This document shows, piece after piece, positions 24,202 through 43,529 of a DNA stretch of 46,037 bases; position 1 is the first letter of the stretch; every line of letters starts with the position of its first letter. This DNA is from Bacteroidota bacterium (GTDB lineage Bacteria; Bacteroidota; Bacteroidia; Chitinophagales; Chitinophagaceae), in NCBI GenBank assembly GCA_018268135.1, contig JAFDXD010000062.1, positions 1 through 46,037 of the forward strand, read 5' to 3'. A program made the position numbers and the translations under genes. Below the pieces are notes generated by a model. That model was given only the letters and a program-made list of their open reading frames with translations, was not told the origin of the DNA and did no database searches.

Positions 24202-27165
24202 ATGATTAATCTCTTTGCCAGGAAAAATGTTTTAAAAAAACAATTACTTTTCGTGATTGTTTTTTACTCATCAAATCTTTTTGCTCAAACCGATTCTGCT
24301 TCAAAAAAAGAGCACCAGGATACTTTGCAGGTAGTTGTAACCAATGGCCTCGAGATAAAAAGGCAGTCTCAGGATTTTAAAGGGCTTTTTAATAATCTTC
24401 CTCTTCAATACGTAAGTTCGCAACCTTATATCTCTTTGCAACAATTATTAAAAGGCAATGCTGCCGGAGTATATGTGCAAGAGCCAAGTGGCGAGCCGGG
24501 TACAGAGCAAAACATTTTTATTCATGGTATTTCGTACCCACTGCTCAATAAGCAGGCTTTATTTGATCAGCAGGCAGCAGTTTTTGTAAACGGTATTCCC
24601 GTAGCTCTGGATAATCCATTTGCTTATGATATTCAGAAGTATGATTTTAACAGGATAGGCCCTGCCACCAACTTATTAGCAACTATTGACCCTGCCAATA
24701 TTGAATCTATTGAAATTGTAAAAGACCCTTTAACGCTGGCTTCCTTAGGGCCCATTGCTGCAAAAGGTGCAATTTTAGTAACTACCAAAAGCGCCCATTC
24801 AGGTTATAGGGATATTAACGTAAATACTTATTTTGGCATTTTACAAAAACCCAATATTACCCCTGTAAATGCTGCGTATGAAAATAATTTTCGTCAGCCT
24901 TTTTATAATAAATACAGTACGCCATTAGATAGATTAAATTATCCTCCATATCTCAGAGATTCTACTAACAGCGATTATTATGGCCCTGCCAACTGGACGG
25001 ATGTATATTTTAAAAATGCTCCCGTTTACTCCATTAACCTTAGCCTCTCTGGTGGCTCCGACAGGGCTAATTTCCGTTTTTTTGTAGGAGATACTAAAAA
25101 TAATGGTAACGCCGATAATACCGCTTTAGACCGTTACACCGGAGCATTTTCTATTAATGTGGCTCCTCTAAAATGGTTGATGGTATCAAGTAATATTACT
25201 TACAACAGACTAGATCGTACCGGCAATCGAAACATACGGGACAGGTTAGCCGAAGAGCGTTATCTGCCCGACCTTACAAACCCTCTTACCCCAAATAAAA
25301 ATGAGTACAACAAATACCTGGCAGAGTTTGATAAATCAATAGATAAAAATGTAACCAATGTAATACAAGGATATATAGCACTAGCGGCAGATTATAAAAA
25401 ATTTCATTACAAATCACGTATTGGCTTTGACTATAATGAAGGGCTTAGAGATGTGTTCTTCCCTCTTACACTTTTAGAAAACAATAATTTTGTTTCTACT
25501 TACTTTGGATACAACCAACGTTTTATATTAAGCAATTCATTAGGCTATCAATTTAATCTGCCTAACAAACAAAAAATTTCTTTAGAGGCTGCCCAAAGTT
25601 ATATGGCAGATATTTATAAATATGATTATGCCTATGCCTACAATGGCCCCAACGATTTTATTAAAATAAATGTAGTAGATGGTAACCCCGGCGCCAGCGA
25701 TTATTTAGACCCGAGAGGCTTCACCGTTTATTATTTTCCTGATAAGATGCAGTCTAATCTTGCTTCTTTTTCTGGCAATGTATCTTACTCTTACAATGAT
25801 GTTTTAAAAGTTTCAGGTTTGGTAAGAAGAGATGGATCATCTAACATGCAACCAGACAACAGATGGTTTACCAGCTTTTCTGCCGGTGCAGATTGGGATA
25901 TTAAAAAATCACTTTTAAAAAATGCTGCAAATAAAATAAGCACTTTAAGCCTCAGTACATCATGGGCACGTATAGGTAAATTATTAAGCGATGACCGCTT
26001 CTCTGCCGGGCCTCAATACAGGGTAGATTTAGGATGGTCTGGCGAACCAACCATTGGCTCTTATGCTGGTTTTCCGGGCATATCAAGACCTTATACCGGT
26101 GGTTGGGTAGGCTATGGTATCCCATGGTCTTACAGCGATCAGCTCAATGTTGGTGCAAGGGTTGGTGCATTTAATGACAGGCTTAAACTGGACATTGGTT
26201 TTTATAATAGAAATGATAAGCAAATGCTTTTTGCAATACCTGTTCCTACAGAGTGGGGATACACAAGCGCTTACGAACCCGGCCTGGAAGTAAATAATAA
26301 AGGAATGGATATTTCTATTGCCACTGATATTATTCCTGCAAAGCAAAATAAAATCAGTTGGACATTTACCGCAAATTCTAATTTTAATAGCAATAAATTA
26401 ATAGCCTTACCAGGCAATCTGCAGGAATTAATTGTAAGCACTACCAAATTAACTGTAGGGCAACCAATAGACGCATTTTGGGTGTATAAAAACAACGGTA
26501 TTTATAATACTGATGCAGAAGTACCGGTAAACCCAACTACCAATCAGAAACTTAATTTTCAGGGAGTAGCTTTAAAAGCAGGAGACCCACGCTGGGCAGA
26601 TATGAATGGCGATTATGTAATAAATGATAAAGACAAAGTATCAATGGGGCATTACCTGCCAAAAGTTACTGGTGGCTTTGGTAGCACCCTTGCTTACAAA
26701 GCATTTTCGCTCAACTTCCAGTTTTATTTTGCTCTTGGCCAAAAAGTATTAAACCAGTATGCAGCTTCTCATCTCGACTTTATTAACACCGAAGCTAATA
26801 ACGATATTAACTCTGTAAAAGAAATTACATTTTGGCAGAAAAAAATGGACTTATCATCCTATCCGAAGTATAACCCCTGGAGCCCTGTAGTACCTTACAG
26901 GCTTGGGCAGGATATGTTTATAGATAATGCTTCTTTTTTAAAACTGCGTACCCTTTCAGTTAATTACGATTTATTAAAAGGCACTTCAAAAAAATGGAAT
27001 AAATCTTTTAAATCATGCATAGTGTATGTAACAGCTACTAATTTGTTTACTATCACTCCGTTTAAGGGTGATGATCCTGAGTTGTCCACTTACAACGGTA
27101 TTTATAACGGGTATGGGTTGCCCATTCCAAGGTCTTTAATTATAGGGTTAAAATTAAATTTATAA
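24202..27165 (+). CDS. SusC/RagA-like TonB-dependent receptor (module A)
   Basis: The 987-residue outer-membrane pump has a signal peptide cleaved near LFAQ (about residue 29), a TonB-box-like DTLQVVVTNG, a plug domain (about 45-200, with QQLLKGNAAGVYVQEPSGEPG and IESIEIVKDPLTLASLG) and a 22-strand barrel ending in IIGLKLNL. It lacks the N-terminal carboxypeptidase-regulatory-like domain that most SusC proteins carry and that its partner at 30701 has. It should import ligands captured by the SusD lid encoded 43 bp downstream. First gene of the operon. Confidence 0.95.
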   Translation: MINLFARKNVLKKQLLFVIVFYSSNLFAQTDSASKKEHQDTLQVVVTNGLEIKRQSQDFKGLFNNLPLQYVSSQPYISLQQLLKGNAAGVYVQEPSGEPGTEQNIFIHGISYPLLNKQALFDQQAAVFVNGIPVALDNPFAYDIQKYDFNRIGPATNLLATIDPANIESIEIVKDPLTLASLGPIAAKGAILVTTKSAHSGYRDINVNTYFGILQKPNITPVNAAYENNFRQPFYNKYSTPLDRLNYPPYLRDSTNSDYYGPANWTDVYFKNAPVYSINLSLSGGSDRANFRFFVGDTKNNGNADNTALDRYTGAFSINVAPLKWLMVSSNITYNRLDRTGNRNIRDRLAEERYLPDLTNPLTPNKNEYNKYLAEFDKSIDKNVTNVIQGYIALAADYKKFHYKSRIGFDYNEGLRDVFFPLTLLENNNFVSTYFGYNQRFILSNSLGYQFNLPNKQKISLEAAQSYMADIYKYDYAYAYNGPNDFIKINVVDGNPGASDYLDPRGFTVYYFPDKMQSNLASFSGNVSYSYNDVLKVSGLVRRDGSSNMQPDNRWFTSFSAGADWDIKKSLLKNAANKISTLSLSTSWARIGKLLSDDRFSAGPQYRVDLGWSGEPTIGSYAGFPGISRPYTGGWVGYGIPWSYSDQLNVGARVGAFNDRLKLDIGFYNRNDKQMLFAIPVPTEWGYTSAYEPGLEVNNKGMDISIATDIIPAKQNKISWTFTANSNFNSNKLIALPGNLQELIVSTTKLTVGQPIDAFWVYKNNGIYNTDAEVPVNPTTNQKLNFQGVALKAGDPRWADMNGDYVINDKDKVSMGHYLPKVTGGFGSTLAYKAFSLNFQFYFALGQKVLNQYAASHLDFINTEANNDINSVKEITFWQKKMDLSSYPKYNPWSPVVPYRLGQDMFIDNASFLKLRTLSVNYDLLKGTSKKWNKSFKSCIVYVTATNLFTITPFKGDDPELSTYNGIYNGYGLPIPRSLIIGLKLNL

Positions 27166-27208
27166 AAATAGAAGTAAAAGATTTCTTTTATTCACAAAAG
27201 GCATTTGT

Positions 27209-28777
27209 ATGAAAATAGTTTTTTTTAATTTTCTTAAAAAGTTTAAAGTACTTGCCATAATATTTTTGCTGGCAATTGTAGCATCATCCTGCAATAAGCA
27301 ATTAGACATCAACTCTACCCGCCAGGCTAATGAAGCAGGCCATTGGAGTACTTATGAAGATGCCCGTGCAGGACTAATTGGATTTTATGGTTTATTTAGG
27401 GCAGCAGTAGCTGACGATAATGGTCATTGGCTTTGGGGCGAATTAAGAAATGGTGATTTTAAGTCGGTAACCCGCCCCGACCTAAAAGCAATTATTGATG
27501 GTAACCTAAAAGCATCCTACCCGGTAATACAAACCATCACTAACTGGCGCAGGTTTTATGCAGTAATCAATGCTTGCAATCTTTTTATAGAAAGAGCAAA
27601 TGGTTGCCTAAAAGATAAACGTTATACAGAATCTTATTATAAACTGGATATTGCCCAGGCAAGAGCAATAAGGTCTTTCGCCTATTTTTATATGGTTCGT
27701 ATTTGGGGAGATGTGCCTCTTATTACCACTTCAAATGATGGTGGCAACTTTGATGCCCTGCCACGTACAAACCAGGATGTAGTGCTTTCTTTTGCCCGGC
27801 AGGAATTAGTGGAAGCCGCACAAAATTTACCTTATTTATATTCCGGCAACGATCCTGATCAGTTATTTCCATCCAACTATTATGGCGGTACACAAGATCA
27901 ATGGTTAAATACTCCTATTAATAAACTTGCAGCTTATGCTTTGCTGGCACATATTGCAGCCTGGCAGGGCAAGTATATTGATGTAGAAGTATATACTTCA
28001 TTTATTGTAAACAATTTTGATAAAAGCAATTTATCGTTAGTAGATATTGATGGCCTGGTAAGCCCAAATGGTTTGTTCTTAGCGGGCAATGGCAATTACA
28101 ATCAGTTAATTGGATTCAATTTTATAAAAGGCAATGGAGAAACTACTTCATCAGGCCACATTGAACAATTAACGCTTGCAAATACTACGCTATATCCCAT
28201 GTCAAAGCAACTGCCCGACATTTATGTACCTAAAGAAACAATCTCTCAATTATTTCCTTTATCAAATGGCAATGATACCCGTTTTGGATTAGATAATCAA
28301 TATACTCCGCCACTAAATTACACTACATACTTTGAAAATTACAATGCAGAAATACCTGTATTTAAGAAAATACGCATTGTAAATGGTGGAAGTAGTACCG
28401 GAAATTTTGCAGTCTATAATTCATCCATTGTTTTTACAAGGTTAGAAGAAATAAAATTACTGTATGCAGAAGCGCTTGCTGTATTGGGTCAGCAAGATCA
28501 GGCAGCAGAACAATTAAATAGCATAAGAAACAACAGGGGCATCAATTCAATTTCTCCGGGGCCAAATGTAGATATAGTAGATGAAGTATTTGCAGAAAGA
28601 AGAAGAGAATTAATGGGAGAAGGATGGAGATGGTATGACCTGGTTCGGTATAATAAAATTAAAAGAAACAATGCAGCATTTAACGAACTTTTAGACAAAG
28701 GAGGAATTTACTGGCCCATTGCTCAGGATGTAATAAACAGGAATCCCAAAATTGTTCAAAATGCTTATTGGCAGTAA
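27209..28777 (+). CDS. SusD/RagB-like surface lipoprotein (module A)
   Basis: The 522-residue lipoprotein has its lipobox Cys at residue 28 (VASSCNKQLD). The SusD core is clear: the TPR segment RAIRSFAYFYMVRIWGDVPL (about residues 150-169) and the C-terminal EVFAERRRELMGEGWRWYDLVRY. SusD proteins sit on the SusC barrel as a hinged lid and bind the incoming ligand. The partner is the SusC-like receptor immediately upstream. The specificity, glycan or peptide, cannot be read from the sequence. Confidence 0.95.
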   Translation: MKIVFFNFLKKFKVLAIIFLLAIVASSCNKQLDINSTRQANEAGHWSTYEDARAGLIGFYGLFRAAVADDNGHWLWGELRNGDFKSVTRPDLKAIIDGNLKASYPVIQTITNWRRFYAVINACNLFIERANGCLKDKRYTESYYKLDIAQARAIRSFAYFYMVRIWGDVPLITTSNDGGNFDALPRTNQDVVLSFARQELVEAAQNLPYLYSGNDPDQLFPSNYYGGTQDQWLNTPINKLAAYALLAHIAAWQGKYIDVEVYTSFIVNNFDKSNLSLVDIDGLVSPNGLFLAGNGNYNQLIGFNFIKGNGETTSSGHIEQLTLANTTLYPMSKQLPDIYVPKETISQLFPLSNGNDTRFGLDNQYTPPLNYTTYFENYNAEIPVFKKIRIVNGGSSTGNFAVYNSSIVFTRLEEIKLLYAEALAVLGQQDQAAEQLNSIRNNRGINSISPGPNVDIVDEVFAERRRELMGEGWRWYDLVRYNKIKRNNAAFNELLDKGGIYWPIAQDVINRNPKIVQNAYWQ

Positions 28778-28870: not shown

Positions 28871-29566
28871 ATGAAATATAAAAGCTTTGCAAATTTCAGA
28901 TGGCTGGCATTGGTAGTTTTTATTGTAACTGTGGCCATAAGTAGCTGCAGTAAAACCGATAAAACTTATTATCATTATACCAATAACCTGGCTACATTTA
29001 ATGGCAATGCCGTGGTGTATCTTCAGTCTCAACCTGCCGGTATTTATGATTCCATGCTATTAGTAATAAACCGGTTAACGGGTATAAAAGATACCCTTAG
29101 CAGCGGCAATATTACTTTGTTTGCTGTAAGCAACAATAGTTTTAGCCTTGCGCTGCAAAATATTAATCAGGCAAGGATGGATTCAGTACCACAAATGCCA
29201 CCAGTATCATTCAGCACAATTGATTCTGCCGTGCTCGATACATTTTTCTGCAGGTATATTATTCAGGGTCAGCATTTAAGCGATAGCCTGGTAGGATTTA
29301 CCGATGGGTTATTATTTCCCTCTATCAGGTATAATTATAATATGCAGATGCAATTTATCCGTACCAATGCATCAGGATTTTTGGGAGGTGGGCCCAAAGC
29401 AATAATTTTTAGTGATCCCAAAAATTCAATTTTTACAAGAAATTGGATAAGAGTAAACACAGTAACGGTAGATATCAAAACTAAAAATGCGGTGATAGAT
29501 GTTTTGCCACCGGGGCACGACTTTGGGTTTGGCGACGATTTTATTAAGAGCGCCAATTTTAGATAA
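28871..29566 (+). CDS. Fasciclin-like lipoprotein (module A)
   Basis: The 231-residue lipoprotein has its Cys at residue 26 (AISSCSKTDK). The body is a divergent fasciclin (FAS1) domain: the H1-like ITLFAVSNNSFSLAL (about residues 80-94) and a late VDIKTKNAVIDVLPPGHDFGFGDD. FAS1 domains mediate adhesion or protein-protein contacts. Its place directly after susD is repeated in module B (35466), so it probably is an accessory surface subunit of the import complex. The leader of 93 bp is the longest gap in the operon. Confidence 0.75.
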   Translation: MKYKSFANFRWLALVVFIVTVAISSCSKTDKTYYHYTNNLATFNGNAVVYLQSQPAGIYDSMLLVINRLTGIKDTLSSGNITLFAVSNNSFSLALQNINQARMDSVPQMPPVSFSTIDSAVLDTFFCRYIIQGQHLSDSLVGFTDGLLFPSIRYNYNMQMQFIRTNASGFLGGGPKAIIFSDPKNSIFTRNWIRVNTVTVDIKTKNAVIDVLPPGHDFGFGDDFIKSANFR

Positions 29567-29616: not shown

Positions 29617-30660
29617 ATGAATACTAAAAAAATAAATAAGAAACCAGTAACCTTAATACTCTTTTTGAGTGTATTAGTATTGTTTCTATCCTGCAAAAAA
29701 TATCTGCCTCAAGAGCGTGAAACAGTAGGAGCCGACTCACAATTTAATCTGGACTTGTACCAACCGGTTTTAGGCCGGACTACAGTTTTTTCCGACAATT
29801 TTTATGTAGGCAGCACTACCTATCCTTCGGATTTTAAAATAGTGAACCCTCGAAAAAGAAACGGGGATCCAGCTCCGGAATTAACGGATGTATTTCCGGT
29901 AATGGTATGGAAAAAAGCTTATGATGGTACAGAAAAATCCATTGCTGAAATAGAAGCTAAGCGTGAAAAACAATATAGGCCTTTGTTTGAAATAGGGCCT
30001 CACTCGGGCGAGTTTACCATGTGGGCCGAAGCTAGCTCTGCATTTATAAAAACACAGCCTGACTCCGGCTATTTATTTGATGTAGAATTGAGCAACTCAG
30101 GTGGCAGGCGTTTTTTTAGAAATATGAAATTAATGCCATTAAAAGAAAGGCCATTTGAACCCTCTAATTATGACCCCATTAGCGGACAGTCAGTATCTAA
30201 CGGAGTTTATCCAAGTGTAGTATCCTCTATTAAGGGTGTCAATACCGGGCGTTATCTTTCTGGTGGTGATATTGATGTATTTATCAGAAAAGTTACCACT
30301 GCTGCTACACCGGGCAATACCATTACATTTAAATTTTTAGATACTTTATACAACCCCATCAATCCTGCATTATTTGCTACCACTGATTGGGCACATCTTG
30401 TTCATGGCTTCAATATGCAAATGACCAATACGGGAGTTACTTACAATGTTGCTTTCCCGGTTCCGTTGGCACAGTTCCCTACCAGGTACACCACTAGTGA
30501 TGGTAGCATGGCCAAAGTTTTATTTACCTATTCAAGGCTTGGATTTGGCGGGGTTCGTGAAGATGCAGTGTTAGGGTTAAATTTTGCTATTTACCAACCC
30601 GGCGATTGGGAAATTGTTTTTGCTTTTAAAAATGATAACCCAAAGTTTGGAAATGACTAA
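29617..30660 (+). CDS. DUF5007-like lipoprotein (module A)
   Basis: The 347-residue lipoprotein has its Cys at residue 26 (LFLSCKKYLP). It is predicted mostly beta, with PLFEIGPHSGEFTMWAEAS, a Gly-rich SGGRRFFRNM and a final YQPGDWEIVFAFKND. It resembles the DUF5007 family found next to SusCD genes in Bacteroidota; I recall that family from gene order and overall pattern, and its function is unknown. No catalytic motif is visible. It is probably a surface binding protein for the cargo of module A. Confidence 0.65.
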   Translation: MNTKKINKKPVTLILFLSVLVLFLSCKKYLPQERETVGADSQFNLDLYQPVLGRTTVFSDNFYVGSTTYPSDFKIVNPRKRNGDPAPELTDVFPVMVWKKAYDGTEKSIAEIEAKREKQYRPLFEIGPHSGEFTMWAEASSAFIKTQPDSGYLFDVELSNSGGRRFFRNMKLMPLKERPFEPSNYDPISGQSVSNGVYPSVVSSIKGVNTGRYLSGGDIDVFIRKVTTAATPGNTITFKFLDTLYNPINPALFATTDWAHLVHGFNMQMTNTGVTYNVAFPVPLAQFPTRYTTSDGSMAKVLFTYSRLGFGGVREDAVLGLNFAIYQPGDWEIVFAFKNDNPKFGND

Positions 30661-30700: not shown

Positions 30701-33700
30701 ATGAGATTTGCTTTTTTAATCATTGCGCTTTCTACTCTTACTTTATGCAGTAACAAAGTGCATGCGCAAACCAAAATAACTGTAAAAGGGGTGGTAAGAG
30801 ATAAAGCCAATCACAACGGTAAGGCCGGTGTTACTATTTCTACTGGTAAACCTTTAAGGGCTATTGCCAATACAAATGATAATGGTAGCTTCTCAGTAAC
30901 AGTTGATGCCGGTGCTGAGCTACAGTTTACTTTTGTAGGGTACGAAACCATACACCGTACAGTATCTTCGAGTCTTTCTAATTTAGATATCAATATCGGG
31001 GTAAAAGATAACCCTATGAAAGAAGTGGTAGTGCAGGGTTTTAAAAGCAAAACTCGTGAAACTTCTACAGGATCCAGCACGGTTATTAGCGGCAAAGTGT
31101 TGCAGAATGTACCGGTATCTAATGTTATAGAATTATTACAGGGTAAGGTTGCGGGCCTCAATATTCAAAATAATACCGGCTCTCCGGGTGGTATGGGTAC
31201 TATTAATTTACGTGGTATTTCCAGTGTGCAAATAAGCAGTGATGGATTTCTTACTCCTACGTCACCACTATTTGTAATAGACGGTGTACCGGTAGACCTG
31301 AATACAAATTATGATTATGGATTTCAAAGTGGAGGCCCTGGTATCAGTCCATTGGCATTGATACCACCGGAAGATATTGAGCAAATGGATGTGTTAAGAG
31401 ATGCAGCCGCTACTTCACAATATGGCTCAAGGGGCGCCTATGGTGTAATTTTAATAACCACCAAGCGAGGACAGTCTAAAATTCCGATTGTACAATATTC
31501 TACAAACTTTTTTATGAACACCCCTCCCAAACTGAGGGAAGTGATTGGAGGTAAAGAAGAAAGAGAAAAAAGGATCAATGCTATTCTTGCATTTGATACC
31601 TCTTTACTTTCTGCTCAGGCATTAATTAATCAAACTTCATTTCTTTCTGACAGCTTAAACCCATTTTATAATAATGCTACTAACTGGCAGAACTATTTTT
31701 TCCGAACTACATTTAACCAACAGCATAATATCAGCATTTTAGGCGGCGATAGTAAGTTCAATTATAAAACCAATATGAACTATTATCAACAGGATGGTAT
31801 TATACAAAATACAGGCTTTAAAAGATATTCACTTAGCATGAATGCCTTATACCAGCCAACCAATGTTTTCAGAATGTTGGTATCACTTTCGGGCCAATTG
31901 GGGCAAAAACAAAATGGAAGTGGAGTAGGCCTTGTACAAACCGGGCTTGCAAGCACAGCTAATACTTCATCATTATTACCTTCACCCTCATTATTTTCTG
32001 CCAATAACCAGGCACTAGCATCTACAGATGTTGCTAACAATAATAAAACTACCAGCATATCTTCTAGCCTCGATTTACAGTATGAACCCATCAAAGGCAT
32101 CCGGTTTGGAAATGTGCTGAGCTATAATTTTAACTCAGGTACATCCGATATTTTTACACCCTCTTTTTTACAAAATGGTATTTCCAACTCTTATAGTTAT
32201 AATGACCATACTTATACTTTGTATGACCGGTCTACCATCAGTTTTGTAAAAACAGTAAACGATGTACATAACTTTAGCGGCTATTTGTTTAACGAATTAA
32301 ATTCTACAGGATTTAGAGCCAATGTAATACAGCTAAAGCAAACTGCAAATGATCAAATATCCGGCCCAATAGGTTATAACGCTGGCCTATCTGGCGGTGG
32401 TACTTTAAATAATACAAACGATTTTCGCCAGCACGGATATGGAGCTTCATTTTCGTATAACTATGACCGTAAGTACATTCTTGATCTCAACTACCGGTTA
32501 GATGGAACTTCTACCAATGGCCCATCTCAAGGGTATTCTCAAAACCCTGCAGTGAGTGTAAGATGGAATTTTAATAAAGAAAAAATATTTGATAAAGCTG
32601 ACTGGTTGAGCTATGGTTCTTTAAGAGCAAGCTGGGGCCGCAATATTACACCTACCGGCAACATCTTTGATGTATATGGTAAATATATTGTGGGTTTAAA
32701 TTATAATAATAACCCTACCGTTGATATTGATTATACCAATGTTCCCAACGTAAATTTCAAACCTCAAACTCAAACCGAATCAAACTTAGGTTTTGAATTA
32801 GGCCTTTGGAATAACAGCCTCGAAACTACTTTTGAAACATACTACCGCTCCATTGACAATCAGGTTTTAGCCTTGCCTCTTGCAAATATTAATGGCTTTC
32901 AACAACTAAAGGCAAATGCCATCAGTCTTGTAGATTATGGGGTAGAATGGACAGCCAAACTAAGGCTATTAAAACCTTCCAATCCATTGCAATGGACAGT
33001 ATCGGTAAATGGTGCACTCAACAGAGATGTACTTACCCAACTACCTCAGGGGCTACGTCAAATGACTTTACAAATATCAGATAATGGCGGCAATGTACCC
33101 GTAGTTTATAAAATTGGGCGCAATGCAATATCTAATCTAATGTACTATACACAAGGGGTATATGCCAGCACTGCAAATGTACCTGTAGATATTGCAACAG
33201 GTAAAAGGCAGCAGTTAGGATCAGGCACTGGTTATTATTTTCAGGGTGGCGATCCACACTGGACAGATGTAAATGGTGATTATATCATTGATCAAAATGA
33301 CCTGCTACCCATTGGAAACCCGATACCTAAAGTTACAGGTGGTATTAGCTCTCTCAACTCTTACAAAAATTTTCAGTTAACTGTAAATGTAACTTATACT
33401 TTACTTAGAGATTTATTGAATACATCCTTAGCTAATATGTTCCAAAATTATTCTAACCCCACAGCTTTAACTGCTATGCTGCCTATTAATAATTATAACT
33501 ATTGGCAGCCCATTAGCAACGGAAAATTAGATGGTACTGCAAATGCACGCTATCCCAATCCTTTTGATTTTAGAAGGTCACCTGTATTCCAGCCATTTAG
33601 AACCAATCAGACCCTCTTTATGGAAGATGGCTCATATTGGAAAATAAACAATATTGTATTGACCTATAATGTTGATAAAAAATTCTTATCACGCTTTGGT

Positions 33701-33859
33701 ATGTCCTCTTGCAGATTTTCTTTATCAGCAAATAATGTGTACACTTTTTCAAAATATAGTGGCCCCGATCCCGAATTGGTAACTCAGCTTGGGCGTGATA
33801 ATTCAGGTGGTTACCCTAATGCAAGAAGTTATGCTGTAGGAATAAGCATTCAATTTTAA
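30701..33859 (+). CDS. SusC/RagA-like TonB-dependent receptor (module B)
   Basis: The 1052-residue receptor has a signal peptide cleaved near VHAQ (about residue 23), then a carboxypeptidase-regulatory-like domain (about 26-100: VKGVVRDKANHNGKAGVTI, FVGYETIHRTV). A TonB-box/plug follows (MKEVVVQGFKSKTRE, LLQGKVAGLNIQNNTGSPGG, MDVLRDAAATSQYGSRGAYG; about 108-265), then a 22-strand barrel ending in GISIQF. It is the full-domain counterpart of the shorter SusC in module A and pairs with the SusD encoded 23 bp downstream. Confidence 0.97.
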   Translation: MRFAFLIIALSTLTLCSNKVHAQTKITVKGVVRDKANHNGKAGVTISTGKPLRAIANTNDNGSFSVTVDAGAELQFTFVGYETIHRTVSSSLSNLDINIGVKDNPMKEVVVQGFKSKTRETSTGSSTVISGKVLQNVPVSNVIELLQGKVAGLNIQNNTGSPGGMGTINLRGISSVQISSDGFLTPTSPLFVIDGVPVDLNTNYDYGFQSGGPGISPLALIPPEDIEQMDVLRDAAATSQYGSRGAYGVILITTKRGQSKIPIVQYSTNFFMNTPPKLREVIGGKEEREKRINAILAFDTSLLSAQALINQTSFLSDSLNPFYNNATNWQNYFFRTTFNQQHNISILGGDSKFNYKTNMNYYQQDGIIQNTGFKRYSLSMNALYQPTNVFRMLVSLSGQLGQKQNGSGVGLVQTGLASTANTSSLLPSPSLFSANNQALASTDVANNNKTTSISSSLDLQYEPIKGIRFGNVLSYNFNSGTSDIFTPSFLQNGISNSYSYNDHTYTLYDRSTISFVKTVNDVHNFSGYLFNELNSTGFRANVIQLKQTANDQISGPIGYNAGLSGGGTLNNTNDFRQHGYGASFSYNYDRKYILDLNYRLDGTSTNGPSQGYSQNPAVSVRWNFNKEKIFDKADWLSYGSLRASWGRNITPTGNIFDVYGKYIVGLNYNNNPTVDIDYTNVPNVNFKPQTQTESNLGFELGLWNNSLETTFETYYRSIDNQVLALPLANINGFQQLKANAISLVDYGVEWTAKLRLLKPSNPLQWTVSVNGALNRDVLTQLPQGLRQMTLQISDNGGNVPVVYKIGRNAISNLMYYTQGVYASTANVPVDIATGKRQQLGSGTGYYFQGGDPHWTDVNGDYIIDQNDLLPIGNPIPKVTGGISSLNSYKNFQLTVNVTYTLLRDLLNTSLANMFQNYSNPTALTAMLPINNYNYWQPISNGKLDGTANARYPNPFDFRRSPVFQPFRTNQTLFMEDGSYWKINNIVLTYNVDKKFLSRFGMSSCRFSLSANNVYTFSKYSGPDPELVTQLGRDNSGGYPNARSYAVGISIQF

Positions 33860-35465: not shown

Positions 35466-36185
35466 ATGATAATAACAAACATTAAAAAAATTATTACAAC
35501 CGGTGCACTGGCAACTATGTTATTGGCAATGGGCTGTAAAAAAAATAGTTATTTTGATAATACCGGCTTAACGGATCCCAGATTTCAAGGTACTGTATTG
35601 GATTACCTGAAATCGAAACCTGTTTATTTTGACTCCATTGTTAAAATAATTCATATTGCCGGGCTTGATGATGCATTTACAAAAGAAGACATCACTTTTT
35701 TTGCGCCAGCAGACTCATCCGTTAGGCGTACACTTATGGCTCTCAACCAGGAGCTTCGCCTTGAGGGTAAGAATGAAGTAACCCGCCTGGAGCAGATAAA
35801 ACCGGCTGTATGGCGTGCCCAGCTCACACGCTACCTCTTTAAAGGTAAAAAATCATTGAATGATTATCCACAGTTGGATGGGCAGAACATTTCTGCCTAC
35901 CCGGGTCAGATATATGCAGCTTATGATGGACAGATAATGAATATAGGGGTCGTTTATAATGATGCAGGTGGCGTAAAGTATGCAGGCTACAGGCAATTAT
36001 TTTTATCTTATATACCATCTCCTACTTCACCCCGTGATTATAACACATGGTTTTCTGTTCCTGTGGCATCGGTAAACATACAACCTACTAACGGGTATGT
36101 GCATGCGCTTGTGTACGTTAATCATTATTTTGGATTTGAACCAAACCAGTTTATTGAAAATGCAATTGCCGCAGGTATTGATTAA
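35466..36185 (+). CDS. Fasciclin-like lipoprotein (module B)
   Basis: The 239-residue lipoprotein has its Cys at residue 24 (LAMGCKKNSY). The FAS1-type H1 motif is clearer here than in the paralogue at 28871: DDAFTKEDITFFAPADSSVRRTL (about residues 68-90). The later part has a divergent H2 region and the ending VHALVYVNHYFGFEPNQF. It has the same operon position after susD as in module A, which marks it as a fixed partner of the SusCD pair. A surface scaffold or adhesion role is inferred. Confidence 0.78.
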   Translation: MIITNIKKIITTGALATMLLAMGCKKNSYFDNTGLTDPRFQGTVLDYLKSKPVYFDSIVKIIHIAGLDDAFTKEDITFFAPADSSVRRTLMALNQELRLEGKNEVTRLEQIKPAVWRAQLTRYLFKGKKSLNDYPQLDGQNISAYPGQIYAAYDGQIMNIGVVYNDAGGVKYAGYRQLFLSYIPSPTSPRDYNTWFSVPVASVNIQPTNGYVHALVYVNHYFGFEPNQFIENAIAAGID

Positions 36186-36239: not shown

Positions 36240-37901
36240 ATGAAAATAAAAAAATATATCAAAACAATCTTTACTTCAACCCTTATCACGGGCATAGCAG
36301 CATTGGCTATTTCATCCTGCTCTAAACAAAAACTTGAGCCGGTAGAAACTTACCCTGATTCGCCAAAGCCACTTGTAAAATTTTTGGATGGCAAGCCTTT
36401 GCCTGCACAGGGTACGGTAGGTTCTGTTGTTACATTTAAAATAACCGGCTTACAAGGTAAAGATACCAGCCAATTCAAATTTTTTATCAATCAAACCCCG
36501 GCTTTAGTAGTATCTGTAGATAGTACTTCTATAAAAGTAATTGTACCACCTAATGCAAGTACTGGCGGATCTTCGGTATTGATAAATGGAGAATATTATT
36601 TTGGCCCAAGTTTTATTGTAAAAGGTAATGTAGCAATAGCTTCTGATTTTGACCCTTCTGTTTGCAATTCTAATAATATTATTAACGGCATTTTCTTAAA
36701 TGATAATAGCCGCTACCTTGTTTATGGCTCCTTTACTGATTATGGTGCAAAAGCATCTGTAAACAATACCATTACAGGCCTTGCAGAATTAAATTCAAGT
36801 TGCGTATATCAAACTACCAATGCTTCTTCAGGAATTGGTACCATCAGTGTTGGCAAACTTGGGCTAAATGGTTACCTGTCAGATGTGTTACAATTGCCTT
36901 CTTCAGATTATATAATTGGGGGGTTGTTTTCTACCTATAATTCTTTTCAAAACATCAGGAATATTACACAAATTGGCAGTGATGGTTCTTTGCAAACCAT
37001 GGTAGTAAATGTAGTAAACCCCGACCCTGCCAACTTTCCGGATAATGGAGTAGATACCGTGCCTGTATTTAATGGAGGTGTGAATAGTAATATTGTAAAA
37101 CAATTTTATAGTAGCAGCACAGGAGCCATTACTACTATTAGCAATTGCACCAATTACAGCAGTACTTTTTATGAGCGTTCTACTAAAGGCGGCCCTTACT
37201 TAGATATTGCAAAAATGCACCAGGTAGTTCGTATGAATGCAGATGGTAGCCTCGATTCTACTTTTAACTTTAATATGGCAACCAAATCGAGCTATGATGC
37301 TGGCAATGGATATATTTATGACGCCATACAATTGCCCGATGAAAGTATAATTTTAGTTGGAAGTTTTACCAGCTTCGATGGAATTTCAGTTAACCATATT
37401 GTAAGAATTGATGCTACTACCGGCTTGATAGATCCTACATTTAATACTGCCGGTACAGGTACAGATGGAGATATAAAAGTAGCTACTTACAATAGTAACA
37501 CCGGAAGTATTTTACTTACCGGAAACTTTAAAAATTATAACGGGCAACCAGCCAATGGGGTGGTGATGATTGATACAGACGGAAACATAGATCCTTCATT
37601 TAAATTTAGAAATACAGAAAGCGGCATAGCCAATTATGCAGGGCAAATGGATGATGGAAAAATCATTGTATCCGGCACATTTAATAAATACGATGGTATA
37701 GTAAGGCCCGGTTTACTTATATTAAATCAGGATGGCAGCCTTGCCAGTGGTTATAATAACACGGGACTTTTTAGAGGTGCAATAAAAGGATTTGCAGAGC
37801 TTACTTACAATGGTCATCAGCAGGTAATACTTGTAGGTAGCTTCGATAGATTTGATGCACAAACAGTGAAAAATATTGTGAAATTCCAATTAAATAATTG
37901 A
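36240..37901 (+). CDS. TIG-domain lipoprotein with delta-60 beta-propeller (DUF5008-like)
   Basis: The 553-residue lipoprotein has its Cys at residue 27 (AISSCSKQKL). Residues about 45-130 form an IPT/TIG immunoglobulin-like domain. The C-terminal part (about 325-550) has four delta-60-type propeller blades, recognisable by RMNADGSLDSTF, RIDATTGLIDPTF, MIDTDGNIDPSF and ILNQDGSLASGY, each followed by a short VGSF/TGNF/SGTF/VGSF strand. Propellers of this type are binding platforms, not enzymes. It takes the same slot in module B as the DUF5007-like gene in module A, probably as a cargo-binding surface protein. Confidence 0.78.
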   Translation: MKIKKYIKTIFTSTLITGIAALAISSCSKQKLEPVETYPDSPKPLVKFLDGKPLPAQGTVGSVVTFKITGLQGKDTSQFKFFINQTPALVVSVDSTSIKVIVPPNASTGGSSVLINGEYYFGPSFIVKGNVAIASDFDPSVCNSNNIINGIFLNDNSRYLVYGSFTDYGAKASVNNTITGLAELNSSCVYQTTNASSGIGTISVGKLGLNGYLSDVLQLPSSDYIIGGLFSTYNSFQNIRNITQIGSDGSLQTMVVNVVNPDPANFPDNGVDTVPVFNGGVNSNIVKQFYSSSTGAITTISNCTNYSSTFYERSTKGGPYLDIAKMHQVVRMNADGSLDSTFNFNMATKSSYDAGNGYIYDAIQLPDESIILVGSFTSFDGISVNHIVRIDATTGLIDPTFNTAGTGTDGDIKVATYNSNTGSILLTGNFKNYNGQPANGVVMIDTDGNIDPSFKFRNTESGIANYAGQMDDGKIIVSGTFNKYDGIVRPGLLILNQDGSLASGYNNTGLFRGAIKGFAELTYNGHQQVILVGSFDRFDAQTVKNIVKFQLNN

Positions 37902-37922: not shown

Positions 37923-39689
37923 ATGATTTCAACATCATTTTATAAAAACAAAATAATTACTGCTTGCATTGTAGTAGCAGTGGCAATGATTACAGCGCTT
38001 TCATGCAACAAACCTTTTCCTAATACTTTGCAGGGAAGCAATAATCCCGGCGCTCAAAATCCGGCTATTGTAAATAAAACACTGGTGATAGTAGTAGATG
38101 GGGCGGTAGGGGAAGAAGTACAGGCAGCCACTCCTCCGGTATTAAATAGTTTGGTAGATTTTTCTATCTACTCCTGGGATGGCTTAAGTGATTTTAAGAA
38201 CAATACCATTACCAATCAATATGCATGGTCAACCTTGCTTACCGGGGTAAATAGTGCCAAGCATAATGTAACCGGTACAGATTTTTCGGGAAATAATTTT
38301 GCAACTTACCCCACTATATTCAGCAGGCTAAAACAGGTAGCACCACAATTGCGTACCAGCGCATTTTGCTCTTCTGATGAGGTAGCTACTAACCTGGCAT
38401 CTGATGCTACTGTAAAAAATTCTTATGCAGGAGATGATGCAGCTACAAAAGAAGGAGTAAAAGCAGAGTTAAATACCAATAACCCCTCGTTTGTATTGGC
38501 ACAGTTTCATAGTGTGGATGCAGCAGGTATGGCAGGCGCCTATTCGGCTGGAGACCCCGGCTACAAAAATGCTATTTTAACGGTAGATGGGTATATAGGA
38601 GAAATATTAACAGCAATGCGTAACCGTTCAAATTTTAAAAATGAAAATTGGATGGTAATTATTACCTCTAATAAAGGTAGCAATACTGCCTACAATGTAC
38701 CGGCTGCTTTATGGAGCGCTTTTAATGATCAGCGCCATAATACTTTTTTCTTTTGTTACAATCCAAGATTTAATAGTATCAATCCAACCAAACCTGGCTC
38801 TATTATTCCATATTTAGGTACAAGCCCTTATTATAATGGAACCCAATCTCAAAATAAAAGAGCAAAAGTATTAAGCGGAGGTACTACTTATGATATTGGC
38901 TCATCTGGCAGCTATACCATTCAATGTAAAGTAAAAATTCCACCCGGGGGTTATTACTATCCTGCAATTTTATCAAAGCGTGCATCATTTTCTGGAGGTG
39001 TGGTAGGATGGGTATTTTTTCTGGAAGGAAATTATTGGCAGGTAAATTTTGGCCAAAGCGGAAAAGGAAACAGGCAAATAAGAGGTGGTGTAATTTGTGA
39101 CGGCCAATGGCATACCCTTACTGTAGTTATTAGGCAGGTAGATGCAAGTACAAGAAATGTTTACACTTATACAGATGGTGTTTTATACACTTCGGTATCT
39201 CCCTCTACCAGAAATATTAATAGCTATGGAAACCTTAATAGCCCACAACCTCTTACAGTAGGAAACCTTCCTCCGGATAACGTTACAAACCTGTCCAATT
39301 ATCTTGTAACAGATATCAGGATGTATAATACTGATTTGTCTGATAACTATGTTGTAAATAATTACTGCCAGACAGATGTGGCTAGTTCAGATCCATATAA
39401 AAGTAATTTAATTGGGTATTGGCCATGCACTAGTGTTAATACAGATAATACAATGTCTGACTTAAGTGTAAACAATCACAGTTTAGTATTGGATTCTTAT
39501 TCTCCCGGAAGTTTTAATGATATGAGCACACTGGTTTGCCCTACCATTACTGATGGAATTTATAAAACAGTGCCCAATGCTGTAGATGTGGTGTTTCAAA
39601 CTTACCAATGGATGGGTATTTCAGTACTCTCATCATGGGGGCTTGATGGGAAAACCTGGGTACCTACATACTCAGACCTGGGAGGATAA
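37923..39689 (+). CDS. Lipoprotein with degenerate alkaline-phosphatase-like and LamG-like domains (1)
   Basis: The 588-residue lipoprotein has its Cys at residue 28 (ITALSCNKPF). Residues about 52-260 follow the alkaline-phosphatase/phosphodiesterase fold (VIVVDGAVGEE with Asp59; WSTLLTGVNSAKHNV), but the metal site is eroded: the usual D-x-x-G-H is DAAGM (199-203) and the usual SDHG reads SNKG (249-252). Residues about 328-490 are a LamG/concanavalin-like domain (PAILSKRAS, DGQWHTLTVVI). A C-terminal DUF4983-like region closes the protein. It is most likely a non-catalytic glycan- or protein-binding protein. A paralogue lies beyond the M60 gene (41802). Confidence 0.75.
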   Translation: MISTSFYKNKIITACIVVAVAMITALSCNKPFPNTLQGSNNPGAQNPAIVNKTLVIVVDGAVGEEVQAATPPVLNSLVDFSIYSWDGLSDFKNNTITNQYAWSTLLTGVNSAKHNVTGTDFSGNNFATYPTIFSRLKQVAPQLRTSAFCSSDEVATNLASDATVKNSYAGDDAATKEGVKAELNTNNPSFVLAQFHSVDAAGMAGAYSAGDPGYKNAILTVDGYIGEILTAMRNRSNFKNENWMVIITSNKGSNTAYNVPAALWSAFNDQRHNTFFFCYNPRFNSINPTKPGSIIPYLGTSPYYNGTQSQNKRAKVLSGGTTYDIGSSGSYTIQCKVKIPPGGYYYPAILSKRASFSGGVVGWVFFLEGNYWQVNFGQSGKGNRQIRGGVICDGQWHTLTVVIRQVDASTRNVYTYTDGVLYTSVSPSTRNINSYGNLNSPQPLTVGNLPPDNVTNLSNYLVTDIRMYNTDLSDNYVVNNYCQTDVASSDPYKSNLIGYWPCTSVNTDNTMSDLSVNNHSLVLDSYSPGSFNDMSTLVCPTITDGIYKTVPNAVDVVFQTYQWMGISVLSSWGLDGKTWVPTYSDLGG

Positions 39690-39700: not shown

Positions 39701-41743
39701 ATGAGCAGAAAATTTAAAAACAAAAGATTTAAAAAAATGTATATGAAAGACATTTTAAATGTAAAAAAAGCAGGCAGTATATTTCTATTGGCTTTAATTG
39801 CTCTATCCTGCAAAAAAACATTGGATCATCCTATTGGCGATGGCACACCTGGAGATGGCGCATTGGTACCTGATATCACGGTGGATACAAGTATTAAAAA
39901 AATTGATGTAAGCAAGTATGCCCAGGCCAGGGTATTTCCCGGATTGGTTTGTGCTACTGAGCCACGATTAAATAATGTGCATGTTTTAATGAATTTGAAT
40001 TATAACTATGTAGAAAGTAACCTTCATCAAAGCGTACCACCACAGCCATTATTTAGTACAGGCCTTTATGCAGCGCCTGGCGAGTTAGTAATAATAGACG
40101 TACCCGGCAATTATTCTCTTGCTGTGCAAATAGGAGCATGGACAGATAATCTTTCAAGTGTTGTAAACGCTCCAAGAGACCCTGTAATTTTTTCAAAAAT
40201 GCAATTGGCACCCGGAAGAAATTATATTCGCAATTTGTACGGAGGCCATATCTATATTAATGCAGCAAGACCTGTTGCCAATCCGGTAGATTTGGTTTTT
40301 ACCAATGTAGTTAAATCTCCCGATTTTATTTTAGGGGTTACTTCTAATGCAGACTGGCAGGCAGCCATCAATAACTCATGTGTGCCATGGTTAGAATTAC
40401 GAAGTAAAAACATGATTTTTACCGTACCCAGAGATTACTGTGTTGCACATCCAATTGCAGACCCTACTGCATTAATGCAAGAATGGGATGATGCAATTAA
40501 TCTTGATTATTACCAATGGGAAGGGCTTTCTGCTACACCCGCCGATTCATTTGATTTAGCTCCATTATTACCCTGGAGAGTAGTGCAAGACATAAAACCA
40601 GTAGTAGGATATGGGCATAGCGGCTACCCTGTAGTTACTCAAAATGATTATGGATGGTTTAATGAATTTACAGATATTACGCAGATAAGAGGAGGCGGAT
40701 GCTGGGGTACTTTACATGAATTGGGGCACAATAATCAACAAACCAGATATTGGAGTTGGACTTCTTTAGGCGAAACTTCTAATAATCTTTTTAGCTTTAA
40801 GGTAGCTCACAGGCACGAAACTACCAATCCTGCAGCCTGGCCACCAAGTCACCCAGCTTTACCAACCGACTTTCCGAAAGCGCTGGATTTTGCAGATGCT
40901 CCTGGCACAAAAAACTTTGATGGCTCAGATAGCCGTATTAATACACCATTTGCCAGGCTGGTACCTTTTGTACAAATTTTTGATAAGGTAAAAGCAAATA
41001 AATTTTATCCCGGACAGCCCGGTGGTTGGGAGTTTATGGGTTTCTTATATTCAAAGGCAAGGCACGCTACCCGTATTTCACAAAACGATCAGGATTGCAG
41101 AGATTTCTTTTTTGAAGCAATATGCGATTTTACTCATGTAAACTGGATTTACTTTTTTAATGCATGGGGAATACAGGTAAGCAATATTTCATCTAATAAA
41201 ATGAAATTGAAATACCCGGTGGTTATGAATCAAAAAATTTGGGAATATAATCCGCTTACCCGTACAGGTGGTGATGATACTTTTAGTACCGATCCTTATG
41301 ACAGGAGTAACTGGTCAATTACTGCAAGTTCAGAAGAAGCATTAGGTAGTGAGCCAGACCCAAGCGGCCCGGCACAAGCTGCAATTGATGGAGATATTAA
41401 TAGCTACTGGCATTCTGATTATGATGTTTTTCAGCCGTTTCCTTATACCTTAACTATTGATATGGGCTCGTCATTACCCATCAATGGTTTTAAAATTATT
41501 CAACGCCAAATGCAAAGGAGAGACATTAAAAATATTAAAATTGAAACAAGTACAAATGGCACTTCCTGGACGGTGGTATCGGGTAGCCCTTTTGCATTGG
41601 CACAATCTGATGCATTGCAAGAATTAACTATACCACTAACTACTTGTAGATATTTCAGGCTATCTGTTTTGAGCGCTGCAGATTTGTATGATACAGATTG
41701 CCCATGTGCTTGCTTAGCCGAAATAGATGTTAAGCATCCATAA
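39701..41743 (+). CDS. M60-family (enhancin/mucinase-like) metallopeptidase lipoprotein
   Basis: The 680-residue lipoprotein has its Cys at residue 37 (LIALSCKKTL). The zinc site is complete: HELGH at 339-343 and Glu358 in LGETSNNLFS, the M60 gluzincin pattern with its characteristic NN after the third ligand. M60 enzymes cleave O-glycosylated proteins such as mucins. A C-terminal F5/8 type C (discoidin, CBM32-like) domain (about 540-680: AAIDGDINSYWHSDYD, then YTLTIDMGS, then the CRYFRLSV strand) probably binds sugars. In-frame ATGs at 39737 and 39743 follow an A-rich run and shorten the long n-region of the signal peptide; either may be the true start. It is the only predicted active hydrolase in the operon. 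Confidence 0.9.
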   Translation: MSRKFKNKRFKKMYMKDILNVKKAGSIFLLALIALSCKKTLDHPIGDGTPGDGALVPDITVDTSIKKIDVSKYAQARVFPGLVCATEPRLNNVHVLMNLNYNYVESNLHQSVPPQPLFSTGLYAAPGELVIIDVPGNYSLAVQIGAWTDNLSSVVNAPRDPVIFSKMQLAPGRNYIRNLYGGHIYINAARPVANPVDLVFTNVVKSPDFILGVTSNADWQAAINNSCVPWLELRSKNMIFTVPRDYCVAHPIADPTALMQEWDDAINLDYYQWEGLSATPADSFDLAPLLPWRVVQDIKPVVGYGHSGYPVVTQNDYGWFNEFTDITQIRGGGCWGTLHELGHNNQQTRYWSWTSLGETSNNLFSFKVAHRHETTNPAAWPPSHPALPTDFPKALDFADAPGTKNFDGSDSRINTPFARLVPFVQIFDKVKANKFYPGQPGGWEFMGFLYSKARHATRISQNDQDCRDFFFEAICDFTHVNWIYFFNAWGIQVSNISSNKMKLKYPVVMNQKIWEYNPLTRTGGDDTFSTDPYDRSNWSITASSEEALGSEPDPSGPAQAAIDGDINSYWHSDYDVFQPFPYTLTIDMGSSLPINGFKIIQRQMQRRDIKNIKIETSTNGTSWTVVSGSPFALAQSDALQELTIPLTTCRYFRLSVLSAADLYDTDCPCACLAEIDVKHP

Positions 41744-41801
41744 AAAATATAATTAGCAGGGCATAAAATGCTCAAAAAATATAAATGAAAAAATAATTAA
41801 G

Positions 41802-43529
41802 ATGACAAAAAAATTAAGCATCGGTTTCACAGGAATATTGGCAGGCATTTTATTCTTAGTAGTGCCATCGTGTAAAAAATATACCGATCCGCCACCCTAT
41901 TTTGAAGACTCTACAGTTGCTCCAAAACCCATTGGGCGCAAAGTATTGGTAATAGCAATTGATGGAGCACAGGGAACTGCCTACAAAGCAATAGCGCCAC
42001 CGGTACTTACAGCAATGGAAGCACATAGTAAGTTTAGTTGGGAAGGTTTTTCTGATGAAAAAACTACTGATGCTGCAAGCTGGGAAACCCTGATGACTGG
42101 TGTATCATATAGTAAGCATGGTATTTTTGACAGTAGTTTTATTTTCTCACAATCTACTACAGGCGATGGGCCAGCTACTATTGCCAATTATTCTTCCATG
42201 TTTTCTTATGTACTTTCTTCAGCAAGGGCCGATATGAAAACCTCATTCATTAGCCAATGGAATAACCTGTTGTTAAAATTAGTGCCACAAGTACAAGATC
42301 CGGTATTAGCAACGAGTGATGCTGCTGTAAAAGATTCTGCAATCTCACGGATTAAAAACCCTAAGTCAGACTTCATTACGGTTGATTTTAATAGCGTTGC
42401 CATTGCAGGAAAGGCCGGAAGTTTCTCTGACACAGACCCTGGGTATAAAGCTGCTGTATTAAAAATAGATGGATACATTGGAGAATTAATGGCTGCTTTA
42501 AAAAGCCGCCCTGAGTACAATAAATCTGAAGAATGGCTTGTAGTAGTAACCGGAACCCATGGAGGTGTAAACAATACTTATGGTGGCCCAACCCAGCCTG
42601 AAACAAATGTGGTATCATTTTACTATAATGAAAATTTTAAACAAATAGAGTTTGTAAAGTCCGGTTCTTTTTCCGGAGTGCAGATAACAGGTACTGGCAA
42701 TCAGACAATAAAAGGGCAGGTATTAAATGACGGCGGTATTTACGACCCCGGAACCGGAGAACAAACAATACAACTCAAGGTAAATGGATCTGCAGGGTAC
42801 TATCCCCATTTTTTCTCTAAAATGGCAAGCTGGCCTTCCACACCAGGCTGGTCAATGTTTTCATCAGGCGGTAATTGGAACATTTCTGTTATATCAACTA
42901 CCAGCTCCGAAAGAAGGATACAAGGCTCTAACCCAATTGTTTTTGACAATACATGGCATACTATTACCGTAGTTTTTGCCGATAGTGCATCTAAAAAATG
43001 GGTAAGAAGATATACAGATGGAAACAGAATAGATCAAACGGATATCACATCTTCTTACAACTCTTCAGGTTCTATTACCTCCACCTCGCCTTTAACCGTG
43101 GGATGGGGAGCAGACCCTGGAATGCCTGCCGTTACATTTTATACAGCAGATATTATGATATTTAATTCTGCTCTAAATGATTCTGAAATTAAAAATAATA
43201 TTTGCCTTACGGATATTACCAAGCATCCTGAATATGCCCATTTAATTGGATACTGGCCTGCAAATGATGGATATGGTGGGCAGTTTCAAAATAAAGCTCC
43301 TGGCCAAAATGCCGGATTTACATTGACGGGATCTTATAAATGGAACACCCTGTCTAATTACCCTTGTACTACTACGCCATCTAGTAACCCCTCAGTTACA
43401 TCAATGGTTGTAAAAAATGTGGACTTATTTACCAATTTATTTTACTGGCTAAAAATACCCACTAACTCCAGTTGGAACTTAGAAGGCGCAAACTGGCTGC
43501 AACAATATGAAATTGAATTTGTAAAGTAG
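41802..43529 (+). CDS. Lipoprotein with degenerate alkaline-phosphatase-like and LamG-like domains (2)
   Basis: This 575-residue paralogue of the gene at 37923 has its Cys at residue 24 (VVPSCKKYTD). The phosphatase-like domain (about 46-260) keeps the first Asp (IAIDGAQG, Asp54) and WETLMTGVSYSKHGI. The D-x-x-G-H site is AIAGK (200-204) and SDHG is GTHG (251-254), so most metal ligands are gone. A LamG-like domain (about 325-480: ASWPSTPGWSMFSSGGNWNIS, DNTWHTITVVF) and the C-terminal region match the first copy, ending in a Trp-rich block (NSSWNLEGANWLQQY). The two copies flank the M60 peptidase, suggesting duplication within the operon. It is the last gene before the terminator. Confidence 0.75.
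   Translation: MTKKLSIGFTGILAGILFLVVPSCKKYTDPPPYFEDSTVAPKPIGRKVLVIAIDGAQGTAYKAIAPPVLTAMEAHSKFSWEGFSDEKTTDAASWETLMTGVSYSKHGIFDSSFIFSQSTTGDGPATIANYSSMFSYVLSSARADMKTSFISQWNNLLLKLVPQVQDPVLATSDAAVKDSAISRIKNPKSDFITVDFNSVAIAGKAGSFSDTDPGYKAAVLKIDGYIGELMAALKSRPEYNKSEEWLVVVTGTHGGVNNTYGGPTQPETNVVSFYYNENFKQIEFVKSGSFSGVQITGTGNQTIKGQVLNDGGIYDPGTGEQTIQLKVNGSAGYYPHFFSKMASWPSTPGWSMFSSGGNWNISVISTTSSERRIQGSNPIVFDNTWHTITVVFADSASKKWVRRYTDGNRIDQTDITSSYNSSGSITSTSPLTVGWGADPGMPAVTFYTADIMIFNSALNDSEIKNNICLTDITKHPEYAHLIGYWPANDGYGGQFQNKAPGQNAGFTLTGSYKWNTLSNYPCTTTPSSNPSVTSMVVKNVDLFTNLFYWLKIPTNSSWNLEGANWLQQYEIEFVK

Follow-up and report, generated by a model that had tools for sequence, protein, structure and literature searches.

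The 46,037-nt stretch analysed here, which we refer to as the window (contig JAFDXD010000062.1, positions 1 to 46,037, of assembly GCA_018268135.1, a Chitinophagaceae genome of 3.27 Mb in 166 contigs), carries a run of eleven genes on the forward strand at 24202-43529. We read this operon, with a probability of about 0.5, as encoding a surface and outer membrane machine that would capture, cut and import fragments of O-glycoproteins, under LacI-type control shared with a GH109-family enzyme. Within it, a conserved core of two SusC/SusD (SusCD) transporter pairs with exchangeable cutting and aiming parts replaces the M60-centred operon that had been proposed originally. The gene order is SusC1, SusD1, FAS1a, DUF5007, SusC2, SusD2, FAS1b, TIG/propeller, AP1, M60 and AP2. 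The coordinates of all eleven open reading frames (ORFs), the measured gaps between them (43, 93, 50, 40, 23, 32, 54, 21, 11 and 58 bp) and a 12-pair hairpin at the end bear out the predicted layout of eleven same-strand genes with gaps of 11-93 bp and a terminator. The features are as follows.

23964..23975, no strand assigned: perfect LacI-family-type operator palindrome GCAAACGTTTGC in the leader, the sole copy in the window even at one mismatch
24001..24008, forward: possible Bacteroidota-type promoter -7 element (AATATTTG), found by eye and one base off TAnnTTTG, which we took as the consensus
24202..27165, forward: SusC1, TonB-dependent transporter (Plug, 5e-10; PDB SusC 8aa4, 3e-33)
27209..28777, forward: SusD1 lipoprotein (SusD_RagB, 6e-25)
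28871..29566, forward: FAS1a lipoprotein, short form (Fasciclin, 0.006, under cut-off)
29617..30660, forward: DUF5007 lipoprotein, beta-rich (PF16398, 1e-85)
30701..33859, forward: SusC2, TonB-dependent transporter (Plug, 8e-19; CarbopepD_reg_2, 7e-9)
33883..35433, forward: SusD2 lipoprotein (SusD_RagB, 4e-25)
35466..36185, forward: FAS1b lipoprotein (Fasciclin, 0.005, under cut-off; position conserved)
36240..37901, forward: TIG/DUF5008 and delta-60 (DUF5122) repeat lipoprotein (Pfam)
37923..39689, forward: AP1, lipoprotein with degenerate phosphodiesterase/phosphatase fold, LamG and DUF4983 (Pfam Phosphodiest and DUF4983)
39701..41743, forward: M60 metallopeptidase lipoprotein with C-terminal F5/8C (CBM32-like) domain (M60 PF13402, 6e-40; F5_F8, 3e-17; M60-like_N called)
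41802..43529, forward: AP2, lipoprotein with degenerate phosphodiesterase fold and DUF4983, paralogue of AP1 (Pfam)
43609..43650, forward: intrinsic terminator (12-pair stem and U-run; -17.6 kcal/mol, z -3.93, 0/200 shuffles as low)

Using Pfam we recovered the predicted two SusC plugs, two SusDs, DUF5007, TIG/delta-60 and M60 proteins, although both FAS1 matches stayed below cut-off and LamG, expected in both phosphatase-like lipoproteins, was called in AP1 but not in AP2. The Fasciclin model passes its cut-off in four relatives of FAS1a that are fused to a carbohydrate-binding module (CBM; 1e-6 to 2e-8), and FAS1b cross-matches the FAS1a of relatives at about 27%. A lipobox cysteine was seen by eye in all nine predicted lipoproteins (C28 in AP1), and the M60 protein has the intact HELGH...GE motif of M60 O-glycopeptidases, so that the lipoboxes and catalytic residues noted originally both stand. 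Solved M60 relatives in the PDB include, by entry name, the O-glycopeptidases BcM60K, F, C and B. Each SusC gene is adjacent to a SusD gene, as is usual in polysaccharide utilisation loci (PULs). Among the 28 distinct window ORFs scanned (the remainder being mostly short or overlapping) there was no carbohydrate-active enzyme linked to the operon, and no glycoside hydrolase, sulfatase or hybrid two-component regulator.

Conservation was examined in two scans, one at species level (one genome per species, using a DUF5007 alignment, with the best 80 of 203 relatives examined) and one at order level (17 regions around DUF5007 matches), which have at least two Lacibacter genomes in common. Most species-scan loci end inside the M60 gene, with AP2 mostly beyond view. 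The first ten genes, SusC1 to M60, were contiguous and ordered in 68 of the 80 species-scan loci, the ordered unit being found in both Chitinophagaceae and Sphingobacteriaceae, and eight of the 13 strong order-scan loci (L021-L028) have all eleven genes in the same order, which bears out the ordered gene set for which a genome search had been proposed. Of the remaining 12 species-scan loci, six from Niabella lack AP1, two (L173, L175) lack M60 and another two (L104, L154) are short contigs; in L105 FAS1a is present beneath an overlapping antisense ORF, and L138 has a split SusD1. The eight genes from SusC1 to TIG were found in 13/13 strong order-scan loci and in 78/80 species-scan loci, the two exceptions being the short contigs. 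Among the other strong loci, L029-L031 have the first nine genes and a protein of ~470 residues whose C-terminal part is a carbohydrate-binding-type domain (below cut-off in L029), and L032 and L033 have the first eight genes only; the four weak order-scan regions hold smaller relatives: L035, for instance, pairs a single SusCD-FAS1-DUF5007-like set with an AP-like gene. Within the order, 15 genomes out of 298 (the window genome among them) have DUF5007, and the eight other genomes listed for the genus all lack it; the distribution is therefore patchy, with several operon copies each in Niabella aurantiaca, N. pedocola and Pedobacter ghigonis.

The eight-gene core persists in 13 loci where M60 is gone (L029-L033, L173, L175) or has lost its HExxH motif (six Niabella loci), which rules out M60 as the core of the operon and overturns the claim that the operon is built around one M60 peptidase. 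HExxH...E is kept in the window M60 and in all eight eleven-gene relatives. A further 76 M60 sequences, mostly truncated by the end of the locus, include 45 that extend as far as the motif, and HExxH is intact in 39 of those. The Niabella homologues (L155, L164, L165, L167, L170, L172) have kept their full length but lack HExxH and, judging by sequence, are apparently pseudo-peptidases that the operon has retained. In all 13 loci without an active M60 (eight species-scan and five order-scan loci) FAS1a is long (379-544 residues), and in all 59 loci with a readable HExxH (the window, the eight full relatives and 50 species-scan loci) it is short; 19 further short-FAS1a loci, plus L105, stop before the M60 motif. 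All nine long FAS1a proteins scanned carry a sugar-binding-type domain (below cut-off in L164), either CBM6/35 (L029, L032, L033, L173, L175) or F5/8C (L155, L164, L165, L170), and the four Niabella proteins among them have no Fasciclin match and were assigned by position and by BLAST to the window FAS1a. In a FastTree tree of SusC2 (84 rows, with 70 of the 80 species-scan loci entered, ten dropped for a SusC2 that was short or near the locus start, and a long-branch warning), FAS1a length and M60 state each switch twice. We rejected an exchange of CBM and M60 as a statistical law, since there are only two independent events and a sign test cannot reach 0.05. Although two events establish no rule, the pattern suggests that a shared core is fitted either with a sugar-binding FAS1a for capture or with M60 for cutting.

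AP1 and AP2 had been described as phosphatase-like, and a profile of the two matched nucleotide pyrophosphatase/phosphodiesterases (NPPs) in the PDB at E 4e-9 to 1e-7, a weak alignment even at its best. The D-EAG-H and SDHG motifs of the enzymes aligned to non-ligand residues, with the SDHG Asp missing in 84/84 AP1 and 9/9 AP2 sequences. Of five aligned ligand positions, whose metal-binding roles we assume from known NPP structures, AP1 retains at most two (84/84) and AP2 two (9/9), and the SDHG His is retained in 8/9 AP2. Because the metal ligands are lost, we rejected AP1 and AP2 as real phosphatases; both are predicted from these alignments to be, very probably, pseudoenzymes.

The leader palindrome GCAAACGTTTGC is of the kind that we take to be bound by LacI-family repressors. 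Of the 83 leaders, 33 contain its core, AAACGTTT (or 17 of 41 clusters once similar leaders have been collapsed), compared with 56/3287 non-leader windows, 97/3444 windows with leaders included and 1.8% of shuffles; a LacI-type operator thus lies near the putative promoter and is enriched in orthologous leaders. Operator copies are 21-22 bp apart in L098, L100, L132, L133, L171 and L021. The genome holds four exact copies of the palindrome, in the operon leader, on contig C22, at the edge of contig C27, and inside an aconitase gene, the last probably by chance. On C22 the palindrome precedes a GH109 gene (GH109_C, 6e-90) by 65 bp, and this gene is divergent from an RpiB gene. The C27 copy (153-164) lies beside the remnant (302-634) of another M60 gene, which contains an in-frame stop, and the same stretch also has genes for a DUF3472/DUF5077 protein, a phosphotransferase-family (PF01636) kinase and a LacI regulator. 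The operons of L098, L100 and L176, each of which has the operator core, are flanked by relatives of this LacI protein (51-55%), and further LacI relatives are found in the regions of L032, L033 and L034. The kinase has relatives near the operon as well, one (51%) in G201, where it follows AP2 at a distance of ~230 bp in the same orientation, and another (48%) upstream of the operon in L148. As a separate observation, the DUF5077 and DUF3472 protein of C27 (L218:836-2155) has relatives (56-57%) upstream of SusC1 in the Mucilaginibacter loci L114, L128 and L148.

No linked sensor-regulator was found beside the operon in the window; the leader has the LacI-type operator, and elsewhere in the genome a LacI gene lies on C27. 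In six relatives a divergent gene of the size of a hybrid two-component system (HTCS) is located upstream of the operon, and all four that were scanned are HTCS genes. None of these six loci has the operator core, and regulation therefore looks like alternative solutions for one unit. The absence of glycoside hydrolases, sulfatases and hybrid regulators that had been pointed out thus holds in the window, but HTCS (4/4 scanned) or LacI genes (L098, L100, L176) lie beside the operons of relatives.

From these parts we propose the following mechanism. SusD1, SusD2, the TIG/propeller protein, the DUF5007 protein and the two dead phosphatase-fold/DUF4983 proteins would form a binding surface, to which the two FAS1 proteins may be added as accessory subunits, one per SusCD pair. 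M60, lipid-anchored and held to sugar through its CBM32-like domain, would cut the backbone beside O-glycans, and the resulting glycopeptides would be imported by the two SusCD pumps. The genes would form one transcription unit, probably under a LacI-family repressor acting at GCAAACGTTTGC, and would be co-controlled with the GH109-family enzyme.

The closest functional parallel is the mucin PUL BT4240-50 of Bacteroides thetaiotaomicron (B. theta), in which, in the available part of PMC11992087, the O-glycopeptidase BT4244-M60 is encoded in a SusCD PUL with a GH109 enzyme and an N-acetylgalactosamine (GalNAc) kinase. Like the window, this PUL has a lipoprotein M60 with CBM32 beside SusCD and a binding lipoprotein, and its GH109 and phosphotransferase-family kinase partners are of the same classes as those found in or near the window's putative regulon. 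It differs in having glycoside hydrolases inside the PUL, and the available description mentions a single SusCD and no FAS1, DUF5007 or 'phosphatase' protein (PMC11992087). The operator shared with the GH109 gene and, near AP2 in one relative, a kinase of the same domain class as the GalNAc kinase BT4240 lend support to the glycoprotein reading, and the GH109 and GalNAc kinase partnership of BT4240-50 tips the balance to GalNAc/Gal-type O-glycoproteins, ahead of arabinogalactan proteins. Nor is a SusCD locus with M60 and no carbohydrate-active enzymes unprecedented, as the original prediction had implied in setting the operon apart from a normal PUL: the same source describes a BT3013/BT3015 PUL with a SusD and an M60-like peptidase, no carbohydrate-active enzymes, and upregulation on porcine mucosal glycans (PMC11992087), a likeness by description only and with no second SusCD mentioned there. 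The capture, clipping and import machine proposed originally therefore remains the best reading, strengthened by the operator at GH109 and by the kinase, and it is the M60-centred part of it that is given up.

Several observations weigh against this reading. The operator core is absent from 50 of the 83 leaders, and a distant LacI relative (23%) lies by L159, whose leader also has no operator core. At one mismatch the genome has nine operator-like sites against eight for a reversed control pattern and, since there is no one-mismatch excess and one exact site falls in aconitase, the regulon rests on three sites, of which that on C27 faces the contig edge and not a readable gene. The C27 kinase matches no NCBIfam model at E 1e-5 and is BT4240-like by domain class only, and GH109 is a family name (the alpha-N-acetylgalactosaminidase family), which makes the activity putative. 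A selection of 108 proteins from the flanks of the order-scan loci gave 171 Pfam families, and the 25 most frequent of these included no glycoside hydrolase. Furthermore, the 13 core-keeping loci have no M60 or no HExxH, and the closest locus to have been studied, PUL5 of B. theta, is one that responds to larch arabinogalactan.

That last point leads to a tentative alternative, which we consider possible but clearly less likely, namely that the substrate is plant arabinogalactan or arabinogalactan protein and that the operon is the Chitinophagaceae form of PUL5, with M60 cutting the core protein or freeing arabinogalactan chains and the SusCDs importing arabinogalactan oligosaccharides or glycopeptides. 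The best PDB matches of SusD1 and SusD2 are the B. theta proteins 3hdx (NP_809182.1; E 4e-141, 474 bits, runner-up 90) and 3iv0 (NP_809186.1; E 8e-105, 355 bits, runner-up 73), both with wide margins. From the accession numbering, which is a weakness of this argument, we presume these to be BT0269 and BT0273. The accessions are four apart, as are the window SusDs (genes 2 and 6), so that among solved structures both are closest, in order, to the PUL5 SusDs. The rows available from PMC10434189 list BT0269-75 products as SusD, hypothetical, DUF5007, SusD and DUF5124, and BT0277-79 as carbohydrate-binding protein, alkaline phosphatase family protein and hypothetical, an order that fits the operon; the fold changes listed for these genes, apparently for iron depletion, are negative (to -29.5), with p of 0.007 to 0.18. 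PUL5 (BT0262-BT0290, in its BT0268-BT0279 part) therefore resembles the window in having two SusD genes four apart with DUF5007 between them, and carbohydrate-binding and alkaline-phosphatase-family proteins after the second pair, as known from the annotation table and PDB sequences. Its susC, BT0268, is recorded as arabinogalactan-induced and the PUL as controlled by the HTCS BT0267 in the available parts of PMC6874557, PMC5061871 and PMC3243724 (Table 2). In the window, by contrast, the scan gave no HTCS and the leader carries a LacI-type operator. A further source, as far as available, lists the PUL5 substrate as unknown (PMC13088901). The link to PUL5 rests on the PDB sequences and the published table, because no DUF5007 member was identified in Bacteroides among 395 genomes of the phylum, 86 genomes and 395 genomes of the class (partly overlapping sets, with matches only in family codes f1 and f23); M60 searches aimed at Bacteroides in 40 and 80 genome handles gave 0 and 1 match, respectively. 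Plant-glycan-type enzymes do occur upstream of the operon in relatives (GH127 in L170, PL11 in L105, GH36 in L110 and GH95 in L106, with GH29 in 4 of 93 upstream proteins scanned out of 159 listed), but GH127 has no match in the window genome, where GH43 has three (two of them over cut-off), and the window operator leads to GH109 and not to a recognised arabinogalactan enzyme. GH127 was also discarded as a marker of arabinogalactan use, being present in 12/13 DUF5007-bearing genomes tested versus 16/20 others. Both candidate substrates are O-glycoproteins, and the outline of capture, cutting and import is therefore more secure than the identity of the sugar.

It is also conceivable, though improbable, that the operon serves to import polysaccharides or oligosaccharides, with M60 and the phosphatase folds all acting as scaffolds for binding and peptide cutting being incidental. 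The full-length Niabella M60 proteins without HExxH, the absence of M60 in L029-L033, L173 and L175, the longer FAS1a in all 13 such loci with CBM6/35 or F5/8C in the nine scanned, and the same reuse of an enzyme fold in AP1/AP2 all fit this idea. However, every one of the 59 loci with a readable HExxH has a short FAS1a, so catalysis looks selected in the window type, and the tree needs two switches only, which reduces the link between FAS1a and M60 to two independent events. A surface set serving adhesion, predation or the processing of the cell's own glycoproteins, and not nutrition, seems very unlikely to us: M60 is the only recognised catabolic enzyme in the operon and binding-type folds dominate, but two SusCD pairs, and the LacI/HTCS sugar-type regulators beside some relatives' operons, suit nutrient uptake better.

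Some SusCD pairs assemble with surface lipoproteins. Such utilisome-type complexes, and RagAB, which imports peptides according to PDB titles, resemble the window in their SusCD pairs and differ in having one SusCD type per complex, and we know of none with M60 or pseudo-phosphatase subunits. The layout thus has a known but little-studied relative in PUL5, while we found no description of the operon family within CC-licensed PMC papers, and the conserved family and its parts appear undescribed within the literature searched.

Further characterisation of individual proteins showed that SusC1 has no CarbopepD_reg_2 N-terminal domain called, and that the TIG protein has no PDB relative at E 0.1 and matches the NCBIfam delta-60 domain model under its cut-off; it is a probable surface binding protein. 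The AlphaFold2 model of the DUF5007 protein is confident (pLDDT 92); a comparison with the PDB gave nothing meaningful (TM about 0.2), and the protein (29617-30660) is possibly a new fold arrangement. In the leader, a search for an invertible promoter gave short imperfect inverted repeats only, and there was no Rfam match at gathering thresholds. The scanned flank genes are housekeeping or general in look (ClpB, DsbA-like and OmdA, and further left glycine dehydrogenase, AnmK, a DeoR-type regulator and others). On the opposite strand 3' of the operon lie a transglutaminase-like gene and transposase genes at the contig edge. The latter (integrase core and HTH; 44747-45993), ~1.2 kb past the operon end at the right edge, are presumably of IS3 type.

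A more specific proposal, which we put forward as speculative and rather doubtful, is that the eight-gene core is one fixed double-transporter assembly for branched O-glycoproteins, with two different SusCD pumps each having a FAS1 subunit and a binding lipoprotein. Aiming and cutting would be exchangeable, through either an active M60 with CBM32 or a CBM grafted onto FAS1a in two lineages as the peptidase dies or leaves, and retired enzyme folds (phosphatase-like, and the Niabella M60) would serve as lectin-like surface subunits.

If the glycoprotein reading is true, soil and water Bacteroidota of two families keep a dedicated glycoprotein uptake operon, which would widen O-glycopeptidase biology past mucosal hosts. 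It would also explain DUF5007, DUF4983 and the SusCD-linked FAS1 proteins as parts of one machine, provide a testable case of two SusCD pumps cooperating and of enzyme folds becoming binding subunits, and give a comparative frame for B. theta PUL5.

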